This document shows, piece after piece, positions 13,047 to 22,403 of a stretch of 26,404 bases of DNA. Positions within the stretch are counted from its first letter, which is position 1; every line of letters starts with the position of its first letter. The stretch comes from a virus, in the IMG/VR virus record IMGVR_UViG_3300007765_000041, positions 1-26,404 of that record. One strand, written 5' to 3'. The notes beneath the pieces are model-generated. The model made no database searches, was not told where the DNA came from, and saw only the letters and a list, made by a program, of their open reading frames with translations. The translations under genes were made by a program, and so were the position numbers.

Positions 13047-13682
13047 CTATTTTTTAGGTAATGTAAAGCCTTTATACCACGCAGGAAGTCCTAGAAATGG
13101 ACGTTTATCAAATTCATTTTCTTTAGCTACTTTAGAACCTTTTTTATTATAATGTAAAAATACTTGTCCACAGTCTTTACCAGTAAATTCTTCTCTCCAG
13201 TGTTCAAGTTCACAGCCAGAGTATATAAGCATATCTCCTGGTTTTAAATCTACTTTAATACCTGCTTGACCTGTCTTAGTTGTAGGATCAAGATAAATTG
13301 GCCAATCATCTCCTCCTAGATTTAAAGTAGTAGATATTTCACAAGAATATCTATCTTTATGTCTAGCAAGCACATCTCCTTTTTTATAAATTCTTGCATA
13401 GGAATATGTAGGACTTAATTTAAGTGAGGTATGTTTTTCCATAACAGGTTGAACTTTTTGTAATAAAGTTTCCATGACTAAATCTGCGTAATGAGAATAA
13501 GTATTAGGAACTTGGTCATCATTCCATACACCCCAGTACTCAGTAAAAGGGGATATATATTTTTGATCAAATAAAAATCTTGCTGCCTTTCTTTTATTTA
13601 AGAAATAAGCAAAACAAAAATCAGCCATTTCTCTATTAATAGCTCCTTTTAGTACTGTATATTTATTTTTTTTGAACGACAT
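13047..13682 (-). CDS. 2OG-Fe(II) oxygenase family protein (A)
   Basis: This 211-residue protein has the jelly-roll dioxygenase signature. The HxD iron ligands His108 and Asp110 are in VLARHKDRYSCEISTTLNL, and the distal His161 is in SGCELEHWREEF. KPGDMLIYSG just before it is the typical turn of the fold. The usual 2-oxoglutarate Arg/Lys about ten residues after the distal His is not obvious; Lys169 is the nearest basic residue, within GKDCGQVFLHY. Substrate unknown; related enzymes hydroxylate protein side chains or small molecules. Its start has an AAGGAG site and overlaps the 57-residue gene upstream by 20 bases. It is the last of four oxygenase genes interleaved with glycine-rich fibre genes, so a virion-protein substrate is possible by inference. 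Confidence 0.8.
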   Translation of the reverse strand: MSFKKNKYTVLKGAINREMADFCFAYFLNKRKAARFLFDQKYISPFTEYWGVWNDDQVPNTYSHYADLVMETLLQKVQPVMEKHTSLKLSPTYSYARIYKKGDVLARHKDRYSCEISTTLNLGGDDWPIYLDPTTKTGQAGIKVDLKPGDMLIYSGCELEHWREEFTGKDCGQVFLHYNKKGSKVAKENEFDKRPFLGLPAWYKGFTLPKK

Positions 13683-13836
13683 TTTTTGTCTCCTTTCTTT
13701 TATTTTCTATGATTTGTTCTACAAAATCATTAGAATATTTTCTAGGGTGGTGACCCAATAAATTTTGAACGTATGCTACTTGTGAAGCACATGTATTTTT
13801 TAAATGAGTAAGTTGAATCATTTTATTTTTGGACAT
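13663..13836 (-). CDS. Short unannotated-type gene, 57 aa, between two oxygenases
   Basis: An ATG at 13836 with a good AAGGAG site about seven bases upstream opens a 57-codon frame. It starts MSKNKMIQLTHLKNTCASQV and ends KRKETKNVVQKK at TAA. It overlaps the end of the upstream oxygenase by 14 bases and the start of the downstream one by 20. Met6 is an alternative start but lacks a ribosome site. The body (AYVQNLLGHHPRKYSNDFVE) has normal protein composition. It fills a gap of 140 bases that otherwise has no gene. Function unknown. Confidence 0.6.
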   Translation of the reverse strand: MSKNKMIQLTHLKNTCASQVAYVQNLLGHHPRKYSNDFVEQIIENKRKETKNVVQKK

Positions 13837-14569
13837 TTAATACTCCTTTCGGTATAGCTTGACAGTTCCAATGAATAAACCTAAATGGTTCATACCCCAT
13901 ATCTACTATATATTGATGAGGCATGTAAGAGGGGAAAAAAATCATTCTTCCTGGTTTTACTTCATAATTAATTTGATGACTAGCATAAGTTACTTTTGTT
14001 TTATCTTTTTCGGGTAAAAGATTCATCATATTCCCTGCTCTAGGGTCTTCAAATAAAGGTCGTGATGTTTTTTCACTGCATTTTAAAAAATAAAAACCGG
14101 ATATATGACCATTCCAATGTGTGTGTAATGTATGATGACCTCCTCCTTTTTTAGCAAATTCTTGTACCCACATTTCTGTAATAAATACTTGATAATTAGT
14201 TAAGTCAAAACCCATTTCTAATAATAAATTATTTGCGGTTGCCCCTATATAATTTGTAAGTTCTAAAAAATTAGGATCTCCCACTAAAGTAGTTGAATGA
14301 AATACGTTACCCATATCTCCTTTATCTCCAAATTTTTTATTTCTTTTATCTATATCTTTTTTTAAATTATTTTTAGCTACTTCAATATATTTATCTGAAG
14401 CTCTATTTAAATCATCTACAAATGCAGGTTCATCAGCAAACCATACAGGACATTTAAAAAGGTCTTCTCTATTTAATTGTTGTGGAAATGATTTTGCACT
14501 TCCACAGGATATCTTATCCAATTCTTTTTGAGTTTTTACTTTTCTTGCTTTTTTTTGTTTCTTTTTCAT
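13823..14569 (-). CDS. 2OG-Fe(II) oxygenase family protein (B), TIGR02466-like core
   Basis: This 248-residue protein starts with a Lys-rich tail (MKKKQKKARKVKTQK). The core motif GGHHTLHTHWNGHISGFYFL at about 143-162 resembles the 'H-x-H...SG-x-Y-Y' motif of putative 2OG-Fe(II) oxygenases (TIGR02466-like). Distal His218 is in YMPHQY and Arg230 in PFRFIHWN, at the expected spacing for metal and 2-oxoglutarate binding. KPGRMIFFPS precedes the distal His as in active enzymes. Its ATG overlaps the TGA of the upstream oxygenase by four bases, so the two are translationally coupled. Substrate unknown. The basic N-terminus, absent from the other three, could bind nucleic acid or an acidic partner. 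Confidence 0.8.
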   Translation of the reverse strand: MKKKQKKARKVKTQKELDKISCGSAKSFPQQLNREDLFKCPVWFADEPAFVDDLNRASDKYIEVAKNNLKKDIDKRNKKFGDKGDMGNVFHSTTLVGDPNFLELTNYIGATANNLLLEMGFDLTNYQVFITEMWVQEFAKKGGGHHTLHTHWNGHISGFYFLKCSEKTSRPLFEDPRAGNMMNLLPEKDKTKVTYASHQINYEVKPGRMIFFPSYMPHQYIVDMGYEPFRFIHWNCQAIPKGVLNVQK

Positions 14570-15195
14570 TTATATGGCCACCCTAAATTCCAGATTACTA
14601 AACTATGTCTTGATCCTTTTTTAACTGGACATACTCTATGCCAAACAAATCCAGGGAACACCACTAAAGATCCTTTAGGGAGTACCTCTTTACATTTTCT
14701 AATGTTTGGTTTTTTATCTGGATCTAAATTTCTAAAATCAAATTCTAATTCGCCTCCCGTATAATCTTTACCTCCTTCTGATAAAGACACAGTTACCGAT
14801 AATTTTCTAATTTTACCATGAGTAGGAGTATTAGGAGCATGATAAGATTTATCCCAACCATCACAATGCCAATCATAGTATTGGCCTTTATTATATTTTG
14901 TAAATTGACAAGACTCAGAAAAATCCCATTGAAAATTCCAACCTGCAGATGTATTAGCTTGATGGACATAAGGTTGTATTTCTTTATATATCCATCTATC
15001 GTTCATCCATACAATATCTGAATCTCTTTTCTTTTTTAAATCTTTAAGTTGTTTTTGATTTAATCTTTTAGGATCACCATACCCACCTGTAGTGGCTAAT
15101 TGATCTTGTAAAGATTTTCCATACTTAACAATATCATCACAAATTCTGTGAGGAATTGCTGATTGAAAATACCAAAAATAGTTTGTTAAATTCAT
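14566..15195 (-). CDS. 2OG-Fe(II) oxygenase, prolyl 4-hydroxylase-like (C)
   Basis: This 209-residue protein fits the P4H-type dioxygenase fold. The HxD ligands His110 and Asp112 lie in GQYYDWHCDGWD, with Tyr107 in the usual 2OG-pocket position. A core strand follows (IRKLSVTVSLSE, then YTGGELEFDF). Distal His186 is in PGFVWHRVCPV and Arg196 is exactly ten residues later, the canonical 2-oxoglutarate anchor. All catalytic residues appear intact, so this is the best candidate for an active enzyme of the four. Phages with similar genes are known from marine T4-like cyanophages; substrates are not established. It lies directly downstream of a glycine-rich fibre gene, and a possible promoter with palindromes precedes it. 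Confidence 0.87.
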   Translation of the reverse strand: MNLTNYFWYFQSAIPHRICDDIVKYGKSLQDQLATTGGYGDPKRLNQKQLKDLKKKRDSDIVWMNDRWIYKEIQPYVHQANTSAGWNFQWDFSESCQFTKYNKGQYYDWHCDGWDKSYHAPNTPTHGKIRKLSVTVSLSEGGKDYTGGELEFDFRNLDPDKKPNIRKCKEVLPKGSLVVFPGFVWHRVCPVKKGSRHSLVIWNLGWPYK

Positions 15196-15213
15196 AAGCT
15201 TTCGTATATTAGT

Positions 15214-15247
15214 TTATACTTTAAATATATTATAATGTAAAGTATAA
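15214..15247. repeat. 10-bp perfect inverted repeat upstream of oxygenase C
   Basis: TTATACTTTA (15214-15223) and TAAAGTATAA (15238-15247) are perfect reverse complements separated by 14 AT-only bases apart from one G. The right arm contains the candidate -10 of the promoter described at 15241-15270. It could be an operator or an mRNA hairpin in the leader. Chance is not negligible in such AT-rich sequence. Confidence 0.45.
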
Positions 15248-15270
15248 TACAAAGCATTGATCTGGATCAA
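15241..15270 (-). promoter_or_regulatory. Possible promoter for the downstream oxygenase group
   Basis: On the minus strand TTGATC (15270-15265) and TATACT (15246-15241) are separated by 18 bases, a fair sigma70-like pair. It lies in the 90-base gap between a fibre gene and oxygenase C, 46 bases before the ATG. A second -10-like TATAAT follows a few bases downstream. Two inverted repeats overlap the two elements. Confidence 0.35.
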
Positions 15271-15271
15271 T
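15256..15271. repeat. Palindrome ATTGATC-tg-GATCAAT
   Basis: The two seven-base arms are perfect reverse complements around a two-base centre. It overlaps the candidate -35 element at 15265-15270 and lies 14 bases beyond the stop of the glycine-rich fibre gene. It could be a binding site for a dimeric regulator. No U-run follows, so it is a poor terminator. Confidence 0.45.
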
Positions 15272-15285
15272 TATGAAACTGTCAA

Positions 15286-17067
15286 TTATTGATATTTATA
15301 TCTAAGAATAACAACACCTGGACCACCTGCTGCACATGCACCACCACCACCTCCAGTGTTTGTTCCTCCAGCTACTCCACTTGCTCCACCACCAAAACCT
15401 ACAGGAGGTCCAGCTGGACCACCACAACCATTTCCATTTCCTCCACCTGCTCTTCCAACAGGACTTGCTGTAATACAAGAAGTTGCACCTGCTCCACCTT
15501 TTCCAGAACCAGGAGCGCCACCTGTAGCACCAGCCGCAGTTGCACCACCTCCACCACCAGCTGAGAAATATCCCCCTGGGTGAACACCACCACCACCAGG
15601 AAAACCTTGATCTGGTGTTGTATTAGGTGTATCTCCAGCTCCACCGGCTCCTGGTCCTGTCGGTGGTGCTGGCGCAGCTCCTCCACCTCCGGATCCACCG
15701 GCAGCTCCATTATAAATTGGTGTACCTGCACCACCACAAAATGTTCCACCACCTCCACCACCTGCTGATGTAATTGTACTAAATGTTGAAAGAGAACCAT
15801 TTTTAGAGGAAGAAGTTCCGGGTCCATTTGGTCCACCACCACCAACAGTTATAGCATAAGTTTGTTTAGAAACTGCTAATGCAGCAACACATGCTCCTAA
15901 AGGTGATCTTGTATAACAACCAGAAGCTACACCAGAAGATTCTCTATATCCACCAGCTCCACCACCACCTGAGCTACTTGCATGTCCACCGCCTCCACCA
16001 CCACCTACTACTAAGTAATCAACTGTTGTTGAACCAGCAGGAGTTCCTGCTGCAGAAACTATAAAGTCAGCTGAAGCTAAAAATGTATGAATTTTGTAAT
16101 CCCCTGAATAACTTATACATCCACCTGTAGCAGTTACAAAATTAGGTGGGGTTTCTGGCCATGTCCCTGCTGATTGATTTTGAAATTGAGAGTCCATTGA
16201 CCACATACCACTTGCTTTGTTTAATTCTTTTACGATAACTATTCCTGAACCACCTGCAGCACCAAGACAATAGTTTCCTGAATAGCCGCTTGCACCACCA
16301 CCGCCGCCTCCAGTATTTACAGTTCCAGCTACAGCACAAGAAACATTATTTGCTCCTCCTGCTCCACCGCCGCCTGGTCCACCCACTGCTGCAGTTCCAC
16401 AATTCCAAGCTCCACCTCCGCCACCACCTGCATAAAGTGTACAATTTATTGGACTTGTTGCTCCAGCACCTCCAGCTCCCCCTGTTGATTGGGAAGGATT
16501 ATTTGCTCCGACTGCTCCGGCACCTCCACCGCCTGCGCCTGCTGCGTCATTTGTTGCTGGTTGTGATTGATCGCCTCCGTCATTTCCTTGACAGGCCACA
16601 CCTGTTCCACCACACCCACTATTAGAAGTTCCACCTCCGCCAGACCCACCTGGTTTTCCGTCAGCAATACCTGGACTAGCTCCATCACTTGCTCCACCAC
16701 CACCTCCACAAGATGTAACACAAAATCCAGTTGAATTAGTTCCAGTAGTGCCTTGTGCACCTGGAGTACCTTCGCAAGTTGCTCCACCTTTAGCTCCTCC
16801 TCCACCTACTGTGACAGGATAGGCTGTTGATCCACAAACTGAAAGATTAGTGCCCGACTGCATTCCGCCTGCTCCGCCGCCACCTGAATAATATCGTCCG
16901 CCACCACCCCCGCCACCAGCGACTATTGAATAATCAATAACTCTAGTTCCTGATTGTGTTGTAAAACAACCTGTAGCTGTGATTGATGTAACAGTATCTT
17001 TACCGAAAGAAGTTTTATTACTTGCTCCGATTATGCCGCCGTTTGTTGATCCTACTGGCTGTGCCAT
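15286..17067 (-). CDS. Glycine-rich tail fibre/adhesin with two repeated domains (593 aa)
   Basis: After a short N-terminal segment there are two copies of one glycine-rich domain, about residues 45-281 and 349-590. Each opens with a strand then poly-Gly (IDYSIVAGGGGGGG; DYLVVGGGGGGG) and closes with GSGIVIVKEL or GPGVVILRYKY. A beta-type linker (282-348) lies between. Poly-Gly stretches suggest a polyglycine-II-type packed domain as in T-even adhesin tips; that comparison is by analogy. The loops contain Pro motifs such as DTPNTTPDQGFPGG and GPAGPP. There are about 18 cysteines, unusual for a fibre. It is probably a receptor-binding structural protein. Its ribosome site (AAGGAGA) overlaps the upstream stop, and oxygenase genes lie on both sides. 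Confidence 0.75.
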   Translation of the reverse strand: MAQPVGSTNGGIIGASNKTSFGKDTVTSITATGCFTTQSGTRVIDYSIVAGGGGGGGRYYSGGGGAGGMQSGTNLSVCGSTAYPVTVGGGGAKGGATCEGTPGAQGTTGTNSTGFCVTSCGGGGGASDGASPGIADGKPGGSGGGGTSNSGCGGTGVACQGNDGGDQSQPATNDAAGAGGGGAGAVGANNPSQSTGGAGGAGATSPINCTLYAGGGGGGAWNCGTAAVGGPGGGGAGGANNVSCAVAGTVNTGGGGGGASGYSGNYCLGAAGGSGIVIVKELNKASGMWSMDSQFQNQSAGTWPETPPNFVTATGGCISYSGDYKIHTFLASADFIVSAAGTPAGSTTVDYLVVGGGGGGGHASSSGGGGAGGYRESSGVASGCYTRSPLGACVAALAVSKQTYAITVGGGGPNGPGTSSSKNGSLSTFSTITSAGGGGGGTFCGGAGTPIYNGAAGGSGGGGAAPAPPTGPGAGGAGDTPNTTPDQGFPGGGGVHPGGYFSAGGGGGATAAGATGGAPGSGKGGAGATSCITASPVGRAGGGNGNGCGGPAGPPVGFGGGASGVAGGTNTGGGGGACAAGGPGVVILRYKYQ

Positions 17068-17077
17068 TTGAGTCTCC

Positions 17078-17545
17078 TTATGCGGATACCCAAGCTAATG
17101 TTGATGCATCCCAATTGAAATTATTGACTGGATCTGAATTATCCGTTGCAGTCCATCTTAGATTGTCTTCGTCCCACGTTATATTTTTATCTGTAGTATC
17201 AGTTGGATATGTGACTGGTGCTTGCCAATCATCATTACCATCTAAAGACCAAGATGCAAAAGGTTGAGGACTTAAAAATTTATCTTTTGCAGCGTCATAT
17301 ACATAACCTTTACCGCAATATTGTTTTCTAAAATTATGATTGTAAGAAGTTTGTTTCCAAGTTCCACCTTTAAAAAAATTAACGCACCATGTTTCTCCAT
17401 CAACATGCATGTCATTATCTCCTAAAGGACCTGCTGCTGTAGAAACATCATTGCCTACAACGACAACTTTTTGTACTACTTGATGTGAATCTGACGTAAA
17501 TCCAGTAGGATCTGTCATTGATTTTAGTTCTGCGAAATGTGCCAT
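17078..17545 (-). CDS. Conserved marine-phage protein of unknown function
   Basis: This 155-residue protein begins MAHFAELKSM and contains GGTWKQTSYNHNFRKQYCG (61-79), SPQPFASWSLDG (92-103) and repeated Trp-Asp-type motifs near the C-terminus (WDEDNLRW, WDASTLAW). This architecture is familiar from cyanophages and other marine phages, where it is frequently next to tail fibre genes and has no assigned role. Its aromatic, mostly beta character fits a small structural or fibre-associated protein. It has a good AAGGAG site and is followed after ten bases by the glycine-rich fibre gene. Functional assignment is open; a fibre chaperone is one possibility. Confidence 0.75.
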   Translation of the reverse strand: MAHFAELKSMTDPTGFTSDSHQVVQKVVVVGNDVSTAAGPLGDNDMHVDGETWCVNFFKGGTWKQTSYNHNFRKQYCGKGYVYDAAKDKFLSPQPFASWSLDGNDDWQAPVTYPTDTTDKNITWDEDNLRWTATDNSDPVNNFNWDASTLAWVSA

Positions 17546-17581
17546 ATTTATACTCCTTAAAAGTTATTTTATATTAAAATT

Positions 17582-18160
17582 TTAACTTATTGTCAACTTG
17601 CCTATATTAAATGATATTACAGTTTTTTTACCTTTTTTCTTGGTTCCTGTATTATGATTTAAATTGCTTTTAAATATCAATAATTGACTTTTTTTGCAAG
17701 GATATTGTATGTACCTATTGGAAAGATAGGTAGGATTAGAGGGAGGTAAGGTCATATCATCTTCTCTATAAAAGTATATATGGTCTAATGGGTCAGATTC
17801 TACATAAAAAGCTCCTGAGACAAAGGACCCAGGATGGATATGTTTAGCTAGATTATCATTCTTAAAACTTAAATTAAACCAAGAACTTTCGACAAAACAT
17901 TGATTAAGAAAGGCTTGATCATACCCTAATTCTTTAAGAAATACTTTAGAATGATTCAAAAACTCATTCAATAAAGGTTTAAAAAAATCATCTTTAACTA
18001 AATCATAGACATTATGTGATGTGTCTACATTTAAAATTTCGTTTCTATTTAATTTATATTGTTTAGCTATTTTAGAAATGTGTTTTTTAATAGATTTTAA
18101 ATCTACATTTAAAGAAGTTTTATATAGAGGAACAGGAAAAAGACTGTCTATTTCTTTCAT
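17582..18160 (-). CDS. 2OG-Fe(II) oxygenase family protein (D), TIGR02466-like
   Basis: This 192-residue protein opens with the SLFPVPLYKTSL segment typical of TIGR02466-like putative 2OG-Fe(II) oxygenases. The metal-site motif LAKHIHPGSFVSGAFYVE (105-121) includes His107 and His109. Distal His169 lies in KSNLNHNTG, and a basic pair Lys178-Lys179 in KKTVISFNIG takes the place of the usual 2-oxoglutarate Arg. The fold elements are therefore in the expected order. It begins 17 bases after the stop of the 638-residue glycine-rich fibre gene, and its ribosome site is weak (AAAAAG), suggesting dependence on read-through from the fibre gene. It is similar in type to oxygenase B but distinct in sequence. 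Substrate unknown. Confidence 0.8.
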   Translation of the reverse strand: MKEIDSLFPVPLYKTSLNVDLKSIKKHISKIAKQYKLNRNEILNVDTSHNVYDLVKDDFFKPLLNEFLNHSKVFLKELGYDQAFLNQCFVESSWFNLSFKNDNLAKHIHPGSFVSGAFYVESDPLDHIYFYREDDMTLPPSNPTYLSNRYIQYPCKKSQLLIFKSNLNHNTGTKKKGKKTVISFNIGKLTIS

Positions 18161-18177
18161 TAGGACTTTTTACTATA

Positions 18178-20094
18178 CTATAATGTTATAGTTCCGTCTA
18201 CCGTAAATGTAGCTACTTTACAACCACCTGCGGGTGCCGGCAAAGTTGTTATTGTATTAGTTCCCGGAGCGGCTGCTAAACATGCTGGCGCACAAGCTGC
18301 TGCAATTCTAAGAATAACAATTCCTGAACCTCCATTACCTCCACCTGAGTTAGGTGTTCCACCACCTCCTCCACCACCACCAGTATTAACTGATCCTGCT
18401 GTACCTGCTCCACCACTTGAATTACCGGCTCCACCACCGCCAGCTCCACCAGAACCTGCACCAGATCCACCTGGTTCAAGCCCACCTCCACCACCACCTG
18501 CGTAAGTGACTGAAGCTCCTGATATTGAGTTTGCTGTTCCTGCTCCACCAGCACCACCAGCATTAGACGGACTTGGTCCACTTCCTGGTGTAGTTGCATT
18601 TGCTCCTGCACATGAAGCTCCACCACCTCCACCACCACCTGATGGTGGAAAGTCAACTCCCAGTCCTCCTGGATTTCCTTGTGGAGGACTTACAGGAGGA
18701 GTATTACCTGCTCCTTTGTAAGATGCATCCGTTCTCATATCTGAAACACCACCACCTGATCCTCCTGGATGACCTGCTCCTGCTCCTGCTGTAGGAGAAT
18801 CAGTTGGTCCAGGTGTTCCGCCTCCACCACCACCAGTTGATGTAATCATTCCTACATATGAAGGCTCTCCACTTGCACATGCAACTGGTCCTCCTGAAGG
18901 AGCTGGAGTTGCCGTTCCACCGGCTCCTACCTGAACCGTATTAGATCCCGGACTTAAATATAATTTTGTTCCACCTGGAAAAGATGTTCTGAATCCACCA
19001 GCTCCACCTCCACCACCTTTATGTCTACCACCAGCTCCACCAGCACCAACTACTAGATAATCGAATGCTATAAATGGATTGGTTGTACCTAAATTTATGT
19101 TTGTTGATGCTTTAAATGTTCCTATATAATTTGTTCCGTCATATGCTACAGGGGCACATGCACTACATGTTGTGAAAGGAGTAGTTGTTTTTACAACTAC
19201 AATTCCTGATCCACCTGCTCCACTTGCTCCAGCAGGACCTGGACTACCAGCAGGACCTGATCCACCTCCACCTCCTCCAGTGTTATTTGTACCATTTGTT
19301 GCTGAGCAACAACCTCCAGCTCCACCGCCGCCAGCTCCACCAGCTCCAGCAGATCCTGTAGGTATGTCTGAACCTCCACCACCACCTGCGTATGTTACGT
19401 CAGAGCCTGTAATTGTATTTGGAGCTCCAGCACCTCCTGCTCCTGAATTATTATCTCCGTTTGATCCTTTTTCTCCAACAGCAGTAGCTCCACCACCTCC
19501 TCCAGCGGCGTTATCATAAGTTGGGCCAGGTGTAGGAGAAGTTCCACCATCAAAACCTTGAGGTGGAGCTGTAGGGGGCGTATTACCTGAACCTCCAGCT
19601 GTGCTTCTTGCACCTCCACCAGCTCCGCCACCTGAACCTCCAGGTCCACCAACACCAGCTGGGTTTCCTGCACTACCATAACCACCACCTGCTGATGTGA
19701 TAGTTGAAAAAATTGAATTAGTTCCTGCATTACCATTATTATGAGTTCCTGAACCAGGATTTCCTCCTGCCGCAGCGCCTCCAGCTCCAACTGTAATTGG
19801 ATAAGTTCCCCATTTTGTAGATATAGAGCATCCTTGTAATGGACTTGGTCCATACCCTGATGCACGATAACCTCCAGCTCCACCACCACCTGCTCCATTA
19901 TATTGTGCTGCACCACCAGACCCACCACCAGCGACTACCATGTAATCTTGAGTTGCGAAATTATAAACCCAATCTGAATTTTTTACATAAGAATATACGG
20001 TGTTCATTTGCCAAACACCTGGTGCACTGCCACACGCTGCACAGCCGTTAGTTACAGTATTAGGGGGTCCGATTATTCCGCCATTGCCAGCCAT
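18178..20094 (-). CDS. Glycine-rich tail fibre/adhesin with two repeated domains (638 aa)
   Basis: This is a paralogue of the 593-residue fibre. Two glycine-rich domains lie at about residues 49-302 and 344-598, opening QDYMVVAGGGSGGA and FDYLVVGAGGAGGR and closing GSGIVVVKTTT and GSGIVILRIAA. Proline loops recur (GNTPPTAPPQGFDGG and GNTPPVSPPQGNPGG). Residues 280-297 form six uninterrupted Gly-X-Y triplets (GPAGSPGPAGASGAGGSG), collagen-like, with one Pro in the Y position. The C-terminal ~35 residues end in a beta-type tail (KVATFTVDGTITL). It is a likely receptor-binding fibre or tip. There is a strong AGGAGG site, and the product is encoded directly before oxygenase D. Confidence 0.78.
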   Translation of the reverse strand: MAGNGGIIGPPNTVTNGCAACGSAPGVWQMNTVYSYVKNSDWVYNFATQDYMVVAGGGSGGAAQYNGAGGGGAGGYRASGYGPSPLQGCSISTKWGTYPITVGAGGAAAGGNPGSGTHNNGNAGTNSIFSTITSAGGGYGSAGNPAGVGGPGGSGGGAGGGARSTAGGSGNTPPTAPPQGFDGGTSPTPGPTYDNAAGGGGGATAVGEKGSNGDNNSGAGGAGAPNTITGSDVTYAGGGGGSDIPTGSAGAGGAGGGGAGGCCSATNGTNNTGGGGGGSGPAGSPGPAGASGAGGSGIVVVKTTTPFTTCSACAPVAYDGTNYIGTFKASTNINLGTTNPFIAFDYLVVGAGGAGGRHKGGGGGAGGFRTSFPGGTKLYLSPGSNTVQVGAGGTATPAPSGGPVACASGEPSYVGMITSTGGGGGGTPGPTDSPTAGAGAGHPGGSGGGVSDMRTDASYKGAGNTPPVSPPQGNPGGLGVDFPPSGGGGGGGASCAGANATTPGSGPSPSNAGGAGGAGTANSISGASVTYAGGGGGGLEPGGSGAGSGGAGGGGAGNSSGGAGTAGSVNTGGGGGGGGTPNSGGGNGGSGIVILRIAAACAPACLAAAPGTNTITTLPAPAGGCKVATFTVDGTITL

Positions 20095-20106
20095 AATTTA
20101 AACCTC

Positions 20107-20502
20107 CTAAGCGTCGTCTAAGACTTCATATGATATGAATAGTTCTAAATCAGATGCAGCACTCGCTCCACCTTTGAGAATATCACCTTCCATTAAATAA
20201 ATGGGAGTGTCAGATACTACTAAAGATGCATCTGCGGGCACTGAAATTGTTTTTGCTAAATATGTTGTGGCTGATGCACCTGTTGGTGTTAGACCATTTG
20301 CAGCTGCTGTACCCATACCGTCAACATATAAATTTAAATCTGCTGCATTTGTTCCATCAACATTTGAACATACTATTCTATTAATTTTTAATAGTTTTTC
20401 TGCATCAACTGTTAATAAAGTTGTTGTTAAAGTGTTGGTTAAAGCCCAACCATAATTACCACCATAAATACTTGTAACTGATACTATATTTGGATTTGCC
20501 AT
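20107..20502 (-). CDS. Small virion structural protein, 131 aa
   Basis: The protein begins MANPNIVSVTSIYGGNYGWA and consists of alternating hydrophobic beta strands (LLKINRIVCSNVDGTNAADL, DASLVVSDTPIYLMEGDIL). Such proteins are common in marine phage structural operons, just before fibre genes, and may be tail or fibre-attachment subunits. There is no signal peptide. Its stop is inside the ribosome site of the following fibre gene, linking the two. No named family is claimed. Confidence 0.65.
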   Translation of the reverse strand: MANPNIVSVTSIYGGNYGWALTNTLTTTLLTVDAEKLLKINRIVCSNVDGTNAADLNLYVDGMGTAAANGLTPTGASATTYLAKTISVPADASLVVSDTPIYLMEGDILKGGASAASDLELFISYEVLDDA

Positions 20503-21272: not shown

Positions 21273-22403
21273 TTATGGTGGTGTAACTTTACTCCAACTA
21301 CCACCTTGTGTAGCTGTTTTTTTACTCCAACTTCCGCCTTGTGTAGCCGTTTTTTTACTCCAGCTACCGCCTTGTGTAGCTGTTTTTTTACTCCAGCTAC
21401 CGCCTTGTGTAGCTGTTTTTTTACTCCAACTTCCATCTTGTGTAGGAGTATATTTTTCCCAGGCTATTGGACCACCAATTTGACCTAAAGTAGTTGTTGC
21501 AGATTGTCCTGTTAATCCCATAACTTGATCTGCTGGTGTAATTGCACCTACAGAAGAAGTTGCTCCTACTCCAGTGATAGGGTATTTAGATTCACATATA
21601 ACACTACCTACACCAGTGCTTGCAGATACACCTGTTATTCCTGTTACAGTAGCTGGAGAAAGCTCTCCAACTGATGCTGTAGCCCCTAAACCTGTTAAAC
21701 TTACATCTTCATTTGGAACAACAACTGTACCTAAAGAAGAAGTAGCATTTACTCCTGATGGAGCAACTACTACTCCTGATTCAATAACAAATTCTCCAAC
21801 AGAAGAAGTTGCACCTTGGCCTGTTAATGGAACACCTACGTTTGGTATTACTACTTCTCCAGTTGAAGAGGTAGCTTCTAAACCTGTTAATCCCATTACT
21901 TGATCTACTGGTGTAATTGCACCTACAGAAGAAGTTGCACTTTGACCTGTTAAGCCCATCACTTGATTTGCTGGTGTGATAGCACCTACAGAAGCAGTTG
22001 CGCCTTGACCTGTTAAAGATAAACTAACCGAAACATCAATAGTTGGTGTTCCTAAAGAAGAAGTAGCACCTAAACCTGTTAAAGAAAGTGAAACAGATGT
22101 AATAGCTGATAACGAACCATTTGCAGAAGTTGCACTTAGCCCCGTTGGAAGAACGGTAACATTATATGTACCACCCCAAACTTGAGATCCCCATGTATCA
22201 CGACCCCAACCTGTATCGTAGTAATCAGCATCACCCCAATCAGCTTGGCCCCATGCCGGGTGACCCCAACCTTGTAAAATATTTTCATCAACATAGCCAC
22301 CAATGTTATATGTACCTTGGCCCCATCCCATACGAGAGGCATTCCACTCCGTTGGGTTAACAATGGCCTGAAGACCCGTTACCGAAACTGTAACGTCAGC
22401 CAT
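21273..22403 (-). CDS. Repeat-containing virion protein with Trp-Gly region and tandem repeats
   Basis: This 376-residue protein has three parts. Residues 26-78 are Trp-Gly rich (GWGHPAWGQADWGDAD, GWGRDTWGSQVWGG). Residues 86-307 contain eleven copies of a T-G-x-x-A-T-S-S-x-G unit about every 20-22 residues (positions 88, 110, 132, 153, 174, 195, 217, 238, 258, 278, 299). Residues 315-376 are a tandem 11-residue repeat (GGSWSKKTATQ) encoded by 33-bp DNA repeats. The eleven-copy section is strongly beta-forming, with an Ig-like or solenoid look. It is probably a tail spike, fibre shaft or capsid appendage. Repeat number probably varies between relatives. The TAGGAG site is good. Function is inferred from composition and operon position. 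Confidence 0.7.
   Translation of the reverse strand: MADVTVSVTGLQAIVNPTEWNASRMGWGQGTYNIGGYVDENILQGWGHPAWGQADWGDADYYDTGWGRDTWGSQVWGGTYNVTVLPTGLSATSANGSLSAITSVSLSLTGLGATSSLGTPTIDVSVSLSLTGQGATASVGAITPANQVMGLTGQSATSSVGAITPVDQVMGLTGLEATSSTGEVVIPNVGVPLTGQGATSSVGEFVIESGVVVAPSGVNATSSLGTVVVPNEDVSLTGLGATASVGELSPATVTGITGVSASTGVGSVICESKYPITGVGATSSVGAITPADQVMGLTGQSATTTLGQIGGPIAWEKYTPTQDGSWSKKTATQGGSWSKKTATQGGSWSKKTATQGGSWSKKTATQGGSWSKVTPP
21285..21455. repeat. 33-bp tandem direct repeats (about five copies)
   Basis: Units begin ACTCCA at 21291, 21324, 21357, 21390 and 21423, each 33 bp. The middle copies are nearly identical (e.g. CTTGTGTAGCTGTTTTTTT) and the last has diverged. Each encodes 11 residues of the C-terminus of the repeat protein. 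The period is a multiple of three, so copy-number changes preserve the frame. There are no spacers, so this is not a CRISPR array. Confidence 0.95.

Follow-up and report, generated by a model that had tools for sequence, protein, structure and literature searches.

2OG-Fe(II) oxygenases of a marine phage tail-fibre locus and a proline loop as their candidate substrate

2-Oxoglutarate (2OG)- and Fe(II)-dependent oxygenases are common yet unexplained in marine phages. Publications on SAR11 phages treat them as metabolic genes that go together with a ferrochelatase (PMC9599517, PMC11561400): 2OG oxygenases are co-located with 'ferrochelatases' in HTVC023P-type phages, where they were interpreted as auxiliary metabolic genes (PMC9599517), and phrog61 and phrog2954 are enriched in seasonal viruses (PMC11561400). 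Roles connected with 2OG and nitrogen, or with DNA repair, have also been proposed (PMC3037559), prolyl-hydroxylase-like folds have been reported from marine phages (PMC12774648), a host-recognition cluster has been described in pelagimyophages (PMC7029224), and a phage tryptophan halogenase has been mentioned (PMC2984593). Here, we describe a locus in the virus record IMGVR_UViG_3300007765_000041 (26,404 bases, analysed whole and called the window below), from a virus of an abundant ocean bacterium, in which four 2OG-Fe(II) oxygenase genes, P1 to P4, lie among the genes of two glycine-rich fibre-like proteins, F1 and F2.

On our analysis, the ferrochelatase drops out of this picture, the oxygenase cassette belongs with the fibre genes in a unit that can be transferred, and a short peptide loop becomes the candidate substrate. 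The explanation that we favour, with about even confidence, is that the locus is a late, exchangeable tail-fibre module in which P1 to P4 hydroxylate virion proteins, the proline loop of the glycine-rich fibre being the most likely substrate.

Four oxygenases and the name 'ferrochelatase'

The four minus-strand open reading frames (ORFs) proposed as dioxygenase genes in a first-pass annotation are present, and all are of the 2OG-Fe(II) oxygenase type. In profile searches, P2 (13823..14569) matches PF13759 (E-value 1.6e-14) and TIGR02466 (67.7 bits, cut-off 62.5), P3 (14566..15195) matches PF13640 (3.4e-15), and P4 (17582..18160, placed between F2 and U7, a small protein) matches PF13759 (8.4e-11) and scores 46.3 bits against TIGR02466, under the same cut-off. 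Three of the four genes are thus above curated Pfam cut-offs. P1 (13047..13682) belongs to a family of its own, PHROG_2954. The His-x-Asp or His-x-His motifs with a distal histidine that the annotation had noticed are confirmed by alignments, in which the metal residues are 95–100 per cent conserved: H108-x-D110...H161 in P1 (all three residues at 1.00 in 174 sequences), H149-x-H151...H218 in P2 (150 sequences), H110-x-D112...H186 plus R196 in P3 (175 sequences) and H107-x-H109...H169 in P4 (64 sequences, a set that lumps distant relatives). The HxH...H arrangement of P2 and P4 departs from the canonical HxD. The genes are not recent copies of one another, as had been stated, the best pairwise BLAST E-value among them being only 0.002, and they fall into PF13640 (P3), PF13759 (P2 and P4) and the separate family of P1.

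P1 to P3 are under purifying selection, with median ratios of nonsynonymous to synonymous substitution rates of 0.14 (P1, n = 158), 0.17 (P2, n = 147) and 0.16 (P3, n = 178); the P4 value of 0.68 (n = 34) is unreliable because the sequence set is too divergent. In one relative (L081:4189-5655) the P2-type gene is roughly twice as long, at 489 amino acids. Another gene, L043:1511-2008, matches PHROG_274, 'DNA endonuclease V' (8.3e-47), and PF13640 weakly (0.0019, under the cut-off); with its 30-member cluster it sits in or beside oxygenase cassettes, and the PHROG_274-type 'DNA endonuclease V' is, to judge from these matches, possibly another misnamed 2OG oxygenase.

P1 matches PHROG_2954, labelled 'ferrochelatase', at 1.8e-51, and the same label appears in the records of HTVC023P, HTVC033P, HTVC008M and cyanophages. 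P1 has no Pfam match at E ≤ 1, the ferrochelatase family PF00762 included, and PF00762 was found in none of 16 phage records, some of them fragments, at E ≤ 10, with the control matching in 10 of 14 genomes. The AlphaFold2 (AF2) model of P1 (mean predicted local distance difference test [pLDDT] score 93.9) has the prolyl-hydroxylase/PiuC fold, that is, a double-stranded beta-helix. Its best Foldseek match is the prolyl 4-hydroxylase of P. putida (4e-9), and it reaches Z scores of about 16–17 to SnoN, PKHD-type oxygenases, prolyl 4-hydroxylase (P4H), PHD2 and PiuC; 888 of 1000 compared chains are at Z ≥ 8, and the 50 matches listed are all 2OG oxygenases. The P1 and P3 profiles align with an hhalign probability of 89 per cent (E-value 2e-6). 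As regards the basic residue that holds 2OG on the last strand in this superfamily, P1 conserves Gln173 at H+12, near the position of Arg196 in P3; basic side chains are conserved in P1 at R97, R111, R163 and H177.

A ferrochelatase identity of P1 is ruled out by the lack of a PF00762 match and the oxygenase fold of the predicted structure. On the evidence of the model, P1 is a 2OG-Fe(II) oxygenase, and its PHROGs and published name is wrong; the first-pass annotation, which had counted P1 among the dioxygenases, was right on the strength of that fold and the invariant HxD...H. There also appear to be fusions of the P1 and P3 types, since PHROG_3531 covers one P1-like and one P3-like half and both matches fall within one 455-residue frame of S-SCSM1.

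The oxygenase cassette and the fibre locus

At 99.8–100 per cent identity, the window corresponds to a portion of the full-length record G001 (64,920 bases), in which 47 of 65 ORFs match HTVC023P, 023Pt_psg01 or HTVC027P. In the direction of transcription the module reads small protein, F2, P4, U7, F1, P3, P2 and P1, followed by P8 (10776..12944), a virion structural protein (phrog_3287) that comes after the cassette in this phage group; all of these genes are on the minus strand. The gene order Gly-U7-Gly-P3-P2-P1-P8, where Gly stands for a glycine-rich gene, recurs among relatives. A scan with P1 gave at least 597 confirmed stretches, of which 80 were kept as loci; P8 lies within 3 kb after P1 in 57 of the 60 with room (20 more are too short). 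Sufficient sequence upstream is present for 135 unique P3 cassettes (29 more are too short), and 116 of the 135 have a glycine-rich ORF within 1.5 kb, most P3 cassette loci having been found via the oxygenases themselves. When loci were instead anchored on P8, an oxygenase was found upstream in 28 of 29 with at least 4 kb of upstream sequence, and a glycine-rich ORF within 8 kb in 16 of the 29 and anywhere upstream in 17, some contigs ending 4–6 kb upstream. Because nearly every locus of this set (28/29) has oxygenases, it is unable to test co-occurrence.

Outside the module, the backbones of G001 and HTVC033P, an HMO-2011-type phage (PMC9038755), are nearly unrelated. Only 11 of the 65 G001 ORFs match HTVC033P, and six of these are within eight consecutive module genes and in the same order: the small protein (20107..20502, minus strand; 47 per cent identity), which is the first gene of the common segment, F2 (48 per cent over 165 residues), U7 (58 per cent), P3 (79 per cent), P2 (81 per cent) and P1 (82 per cent). 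P4 and F1 have no match in HTVC033P, and the remaining five matches are scattered, at 26–46 per cent except for one short match at 72 per cent. A third setting is provided by the fragment L034, where a cassette with 78 per cent identity over partial P3, 76 per cent for P2 and 87 per cent for P1 is followed by neck, sheath-stabilizer and terminase genes of T4-like type. The sharing with HTVC033P and the T4-like fragment together indicate, at the level of sequence, that closely related cassettes serve three backbones and that the P3-P2-P1 cassette is part of a mobile, exchangeable fibre module. The arrangement varies: the cassette is inverted in L161 and HTVC027P, it is on the side opposite the fibre genes in HTVC008M, and the lake phage DSL-LC04 has the order glycine-rich gene, small ORF, PF13759 oxygenase, U7.

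Elsewhere, a 376-residue protein of the window (21273-22403) repeats GSWSKKTATQG several times at its C-terminus, and an additional PF13759 match (G001:59097-59393) is distant from the fibre locus.

The proline loop of the glycine-rich domain

F1 (15286..17067) and F2 (18178..20094), both on the minus strand, are 31–32 per cent glycine and match PF21722 in two stretches each (6e-34 and 2.7e-36, scoring 118.4 and 126.1 bits against a cut-off of 24.3). That they are tail fibre parts is suggested by gene order and by fold matches, the only notable ones of the F2 C-terminal domain being weak matches to the Bxb1 tail tip (3.6e-3) and the Pam3 fibre (2.5e-2), both phage tail proteins. A tblastn search with F2 in the phage collection returned nothing, probably owing to the low-complexity filter. 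Each PF21722 domain bears a loop, and in the model of the F2 C-terminal domain the loop is in the confident part (block pLDDT 92–96). The two F2 loops, NTPPTAPPQG in the first domain (19555..19584) and NTPPVSPPQG in the second (18676..18705), are the proposed target sites; F1 has the short, cysteine-bearing form GTGVACQG in its first domain (16585..16608) and a Pro-form loop, DTPNTTPDQG, in its second (15604..15633), all four loops being on the minus strand. The pattern TPxxxPxQG occurs 118 times in 98 of 188 unique glycine-rich ORFs of cassette loci, against 0.23 in shuffles. Cysteine is about four times commoner in F1, F2 and these 188 ORFs than in the other ORFs there (1.6 versus 0.4 per cent), many short loops reading GTACQ; a cysteine-rich composition is unusual for a fibre assembled inside the cell.

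Four scans anchored on the glycine-rich protein yielded 190 loci, 178 of which have a typed loop; the 12 without a typed domain were dropped. The Pro form, GNTP[PS][VT]SP[PSA]QG, is present in 100 loci, the shorter Gly form, [AST]GT[SAV][GN]QG, in 69 and other loops in 9, which the Pro/Gly table leaves out. When the query of the first scan (DSL-LC04) was picked, the loop association had not yet been noticed; the three later queries were picked once it had, and came from Gly-form fibres in two cases and in one from a Pro-form fibre with no accompanying oxygenase. Oxygenases near these loci were called in stop-to-stop frames, and duplicate contigs (e.g. L286, L337 and L374) stay in the locus counts and are merged only in the lineage counts. 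With the four scans pooled, 48 of 100 Pro-form loci and 0 of 69 Gly-form loci have an oxygenase within 5 kb (P = 2.5e-14; P = 8e-12 with the nine other loci counted as non-Pro). Among loci with room on both sides the counts are 36 of 70 and 0 of 45, and among pure Pro loci with room 36 of 54. Collapsed into lineages, the Pro and Gly forms give 23/47 vs 0/35 at 80 per cent identity, 20/42 vs 0/30 at 70 per cent, 16/33 vs 0/22 at 65 per cent and 8/14 vs 0/14 at 60 per cent (P from 1.4e-7 to 0.002 across these levels). The first scan alone has oxygenases in 26/30 Pro, 0/14 Gly and 2/5 other loci, and its lineages with room give 13/14 vs 0/9 at 70 per cent and 9/10 vs 0/9 at 60 per cent (P = 1e-4).

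Approached from the cassette, 124 of 137 loci with both an oxygenase and the glycine-rich domain (duplicate contigs included) have a loop with at least two prolines, 95 of them by the strict loop pattern; eight lack such a loop and five are untyped. U7 (17078..17545, minus strand; phrog_7759) is near glycine-rich proteins of both loop forms, in 37/45 Gly-form and 59/70 Pro-form loci with room (96/115 overall). It serves as an internal control for the neighbourhood and probably accompanies fibres of this type in general. As a control on whole records, we picked 54 long records by hand, dropped five untyped and two with other loops (L327, L428) and searched 47, one of which has an 'other' loop (L443). 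In the remaining 46, PF13640 or PF13759 is matched in 11 of the 25 records with the Pro form and in 2 of the 21 with the Gly form, and near the fibre in 9 of 25 and 0 of 21. The record of L414, of the Pro form, has a PF13759 match that is weak and partial and was left uncounted. A two-trait model in which loop and oxygenase evolve dependently is preferred (likelihood ratio [LR] 21.3, P = 2.7e-4), on one weak, midpoint-rooted FastTree tree; under it the Pro loop is lost more slowly where an oxygenase is present. When the loop is allowed to affect nothing but the turnover of the oxygenase, the model is not significant (P = 0.11).

Candidate substrates and known systems

A number of observations weigh against the loop, or glycine-richness in general, as what the oxygenases follow. 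No glycine-rich ORF is visible upstream, in the available sequence, in 11 of the 28 oxygenase-bearing P8-anchored loci. A rotation test at 5 kb gives no strong signal, with P-values of 0.06–0.27 for the seven records of pelagiphage type and 0.19 for DSL-LC04. The test also covered four cyanophages; their glycine-rich domains lie 3.5–9.2 kb from the closest oxygenase, and in three of the four that distance exceeds 5 kb. The scans, too, are uneven: oxygenases are found in 0/5 Pro, 0/22 Gly and 0/1 other loci of the second, in 21/30 Pro loci of the third, which has no Gly-form loci and hence no contrast, and in 1/35 Pro, 0/33 Gly and 1/3 other loci of the fourth (Gly-form query). Because the scans differ in contrast, the pooled table leans on the first, with phage group as a confounder, and the loop is not sufficient, because 34 of the 35 Pro-form loci of the fourth scan are without oxygenase. 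Scans two to four pooled and collapsed at 60 per cent, with room, give 3/11 vs 0/8, which is not significant, as is also the case when the pooled lineages are collapsed at 55 per cent identity, which leaves six. Three of the nine intermediate ('other') loops have oxygenases (L277, L285 and L443), and none of 16 mixed-form loci with room has one. A scan with the HTVC008M glycine-rich protein found nine loci, eight of them with a glycine-rich ORF; all eight have oxygenases nearby, and all seven typed are of the Gly form, essentially in one lineage. Adding these eight (seven typed) as Gly form changes the pooled table to 48/100 vs 8/77 (P = 4.5e-8), or to 20/42 vs 1/31 (P = 1.7e-5) with the set counted as one lineage. 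A domain tree built with the loop excluded, with only 3 and 5 supported independent pairs, speaks neither for nor against the loop.

The association of the Pro loop with fibre-adjacent oxygenases is therefore one-sided but lineage-dependent, and the data support a tie of the oxygenases to the fibre locus, not to glycine-richness as such. The first-pass annotation had proposed that oxygenases cluster with glycine-rich fibre genes. The fibre locus part of that proposal stands, given the position upstream of P8 and the movement with fibre genes between backbones; the glycine-richness part, in the form proposed, is not supported, given the P8-anchored loci without a glycine-rich ORF, the Gly-form loci without an oxygenase and the weak rotation test. 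In the synteny comparison, likewise, oxygenases mark the fibre locus, and glycine-richness alone is not the key.

If our preferred explanation holds, P1 to P4 would be 2OG/Fe(II)-dependent hydroxylases acting on phage virion proteins in late infection, using host 2OG, Fe(II) and oxygen ahead of fibre assembly. The Pro loop GNTPP[TV]xPPQG within the glycine-rich domain would be modified first, and different enzymes may take different residues or neighbouring virion proteins. By analogy with prolyl hydroxylation elsewhere, the loop would become stiffer, or gain hydrogen bonds on an exposed surface, once its prolines are hydroxylated. We infer enzyme activity of P1 to P4, proline hydroxylation and a stabilizing or tuning effect on the fibre, and hydroxylation may bear on host recognition or stability. 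Our search of literature titles and abstract openings, whose coverage excludes most subscription journals, found no proposal of fibre hydroxylation in these phages. To our knowledge, hydroxylation of a tail fibre by enzymes of the phage itself would be without precedent, and it would occur in a widespread group of marine viruses.

Among relatives, the stretch from the fibre genes to P8 also contains a tryptophan halogenase (L117; PF04820, 5e-110), sulfotransferases (L133, 1.3e-11, near the contig end; L120, just over the cut-off), carbamoyltransferases (L156 and L098), methyltransferases (L157, and L162 under the cut-off) and a JmjC_2-like protein (L162). These tailoring genes resemble the natural-product kind. 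Halogenase genes lie near oxygenases in HTVC008M, syn9 and S-CREM1, the match in S-SCSM1 being partial (94 of 458 positions), and in the myophages searched the carbamoyltransferases lie away from the cassette region. We can only tentatively suggest a modular decoration system, in which several 2OG hydroxylases with a defined Pro-loop substrate in a glycine-rich adhesin are joined in some relatives by tryptophan halogenase, sulfotransferase, carbamoyltransferase or methyltransferase genes of the same slot; receptor-binding proteins would then be chemically tailored, not just varied in sequence.

The published interpretation, in which the oxygenases are auxiliary genes acting on host metabolism (2OG/nitrogen signalling, iron or small molecules) and the fibre locus is merely a recombination hot spot, seems to us a lesser but real possibility. 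Besides its standing in print with a 'ferrochelatase' (PMC9599517, PMC11561400) and a role in 2OG and nitrogen (PMC3037559), it would account for the further such genes that the myophages HTVC008M and S-SCSM1 carry elsewhere, for the halogenase and transferase genes sharing the slot, for an invertible cassette and for Pro-loop loci that mostly lack oxygenases in the fourth scan. Its ferrochelatase leg falls with the P1 fold and the missing PF00762, however, and a pure hot spot leaves unexplained both the absence of oxygenases near the 69 Gly-form loci, which mostly have U7 as a neighbour too, and a shared segment whose cassette genes are about 80 per cent identical.

That the oxygenases modify other virion proteins (U7, P8 or other fibres), with the Pro loop just marking fibre subtypes of certain phage groups, we regard as rather unlikely. 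It fits the persistence of oxygenases without a visible glycine-rich ORF (11/28), the HTVC008M oxygenases beside a Gly-form loop, and the missing association within the fourth scan together with the few supported tree pairs; yet the first-scan association survives the lineage collapse at 60 per cent, and dependent evolution is preferred in the four-state model (LR 21.3, on the single midpoint-rooted FastTree tree). An action on nucleic acid, such as AlkB/TET-like repair or hypermodification, is very improbable: the profile matches to a Tet-like dioxygenase are weak (P1, 0.26; P3, 3e-4) and protein hydroxylases match far better, and the DNA-repair suggestion in print (PMC3037559) sits poorly with a position among virion genes and with a segment common to HTVC033P that contains no recognised DNA-metabolism gene.

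Set beside characterized enzymes, P3 (HxD...H...R) has as its nearest solved relatives the PiuC/YbiX PKHD-type hydroxylases (profile match to 3dkq, 2.5e-19) and the prolyl 4-hydroxylases (P4H structures, 2.5e-11), a group that takes in PHD2, the P. putida P4H and the collagen-type P4H, PiuC/PKHD being the nearer. P1 resembles PiuC/PKHD, PHD2 and the P. putida P4H by the fold of its predicted structure (Z about 16), has no confident sequence match to its relatives in the PDB (best E-value 0.26) and differs from the PiuC/P4H group in having Gln173 near where P3 has its arginine. P2 and P4 are like the TIGR02466/PF13759 proteins 3bvc and 2rg4, structures titled uncharacterized, by profile and by HxH...H; P2 matches 3bvc at 1.1e-5, and P4, under the TIGR02466 cut-off, only weakly (0.031). 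As a member of PHROG_2954 of cyano- and pelagiphages, a family for which no relation to ferrochelatase PF00762 was found, P1 may also belong with the T4-GC615 'ferrochetalase domain' cluster (PMC3037559), which a note in the S-P4 record suggests is the same family.

On the fibre side, F2 has a glycine-rich domain in common with the Pam3 tail fibre and the Bxb1 tail tip, with weak fold matches. F1 and F2 presumably also resemble the gp38-type polyglycine adhesins. A study of collagen-like prophage proteins of Escherichia coli (PMC3368898) reportedly mentions hydroxyproline. A parallel for the system as a whole is the collagen lysyl hydroxylase of Mimivirus with its viral collagens (PMC5802723, PMC9546862), since in both cases a viral 2OG hydroxylase goes together with repetitive glycine-rich structural proteins. 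The present virus, however, infects bacteria, its fibre is not of the collagen (GXY) type, and its enzymes are predicted from genes.

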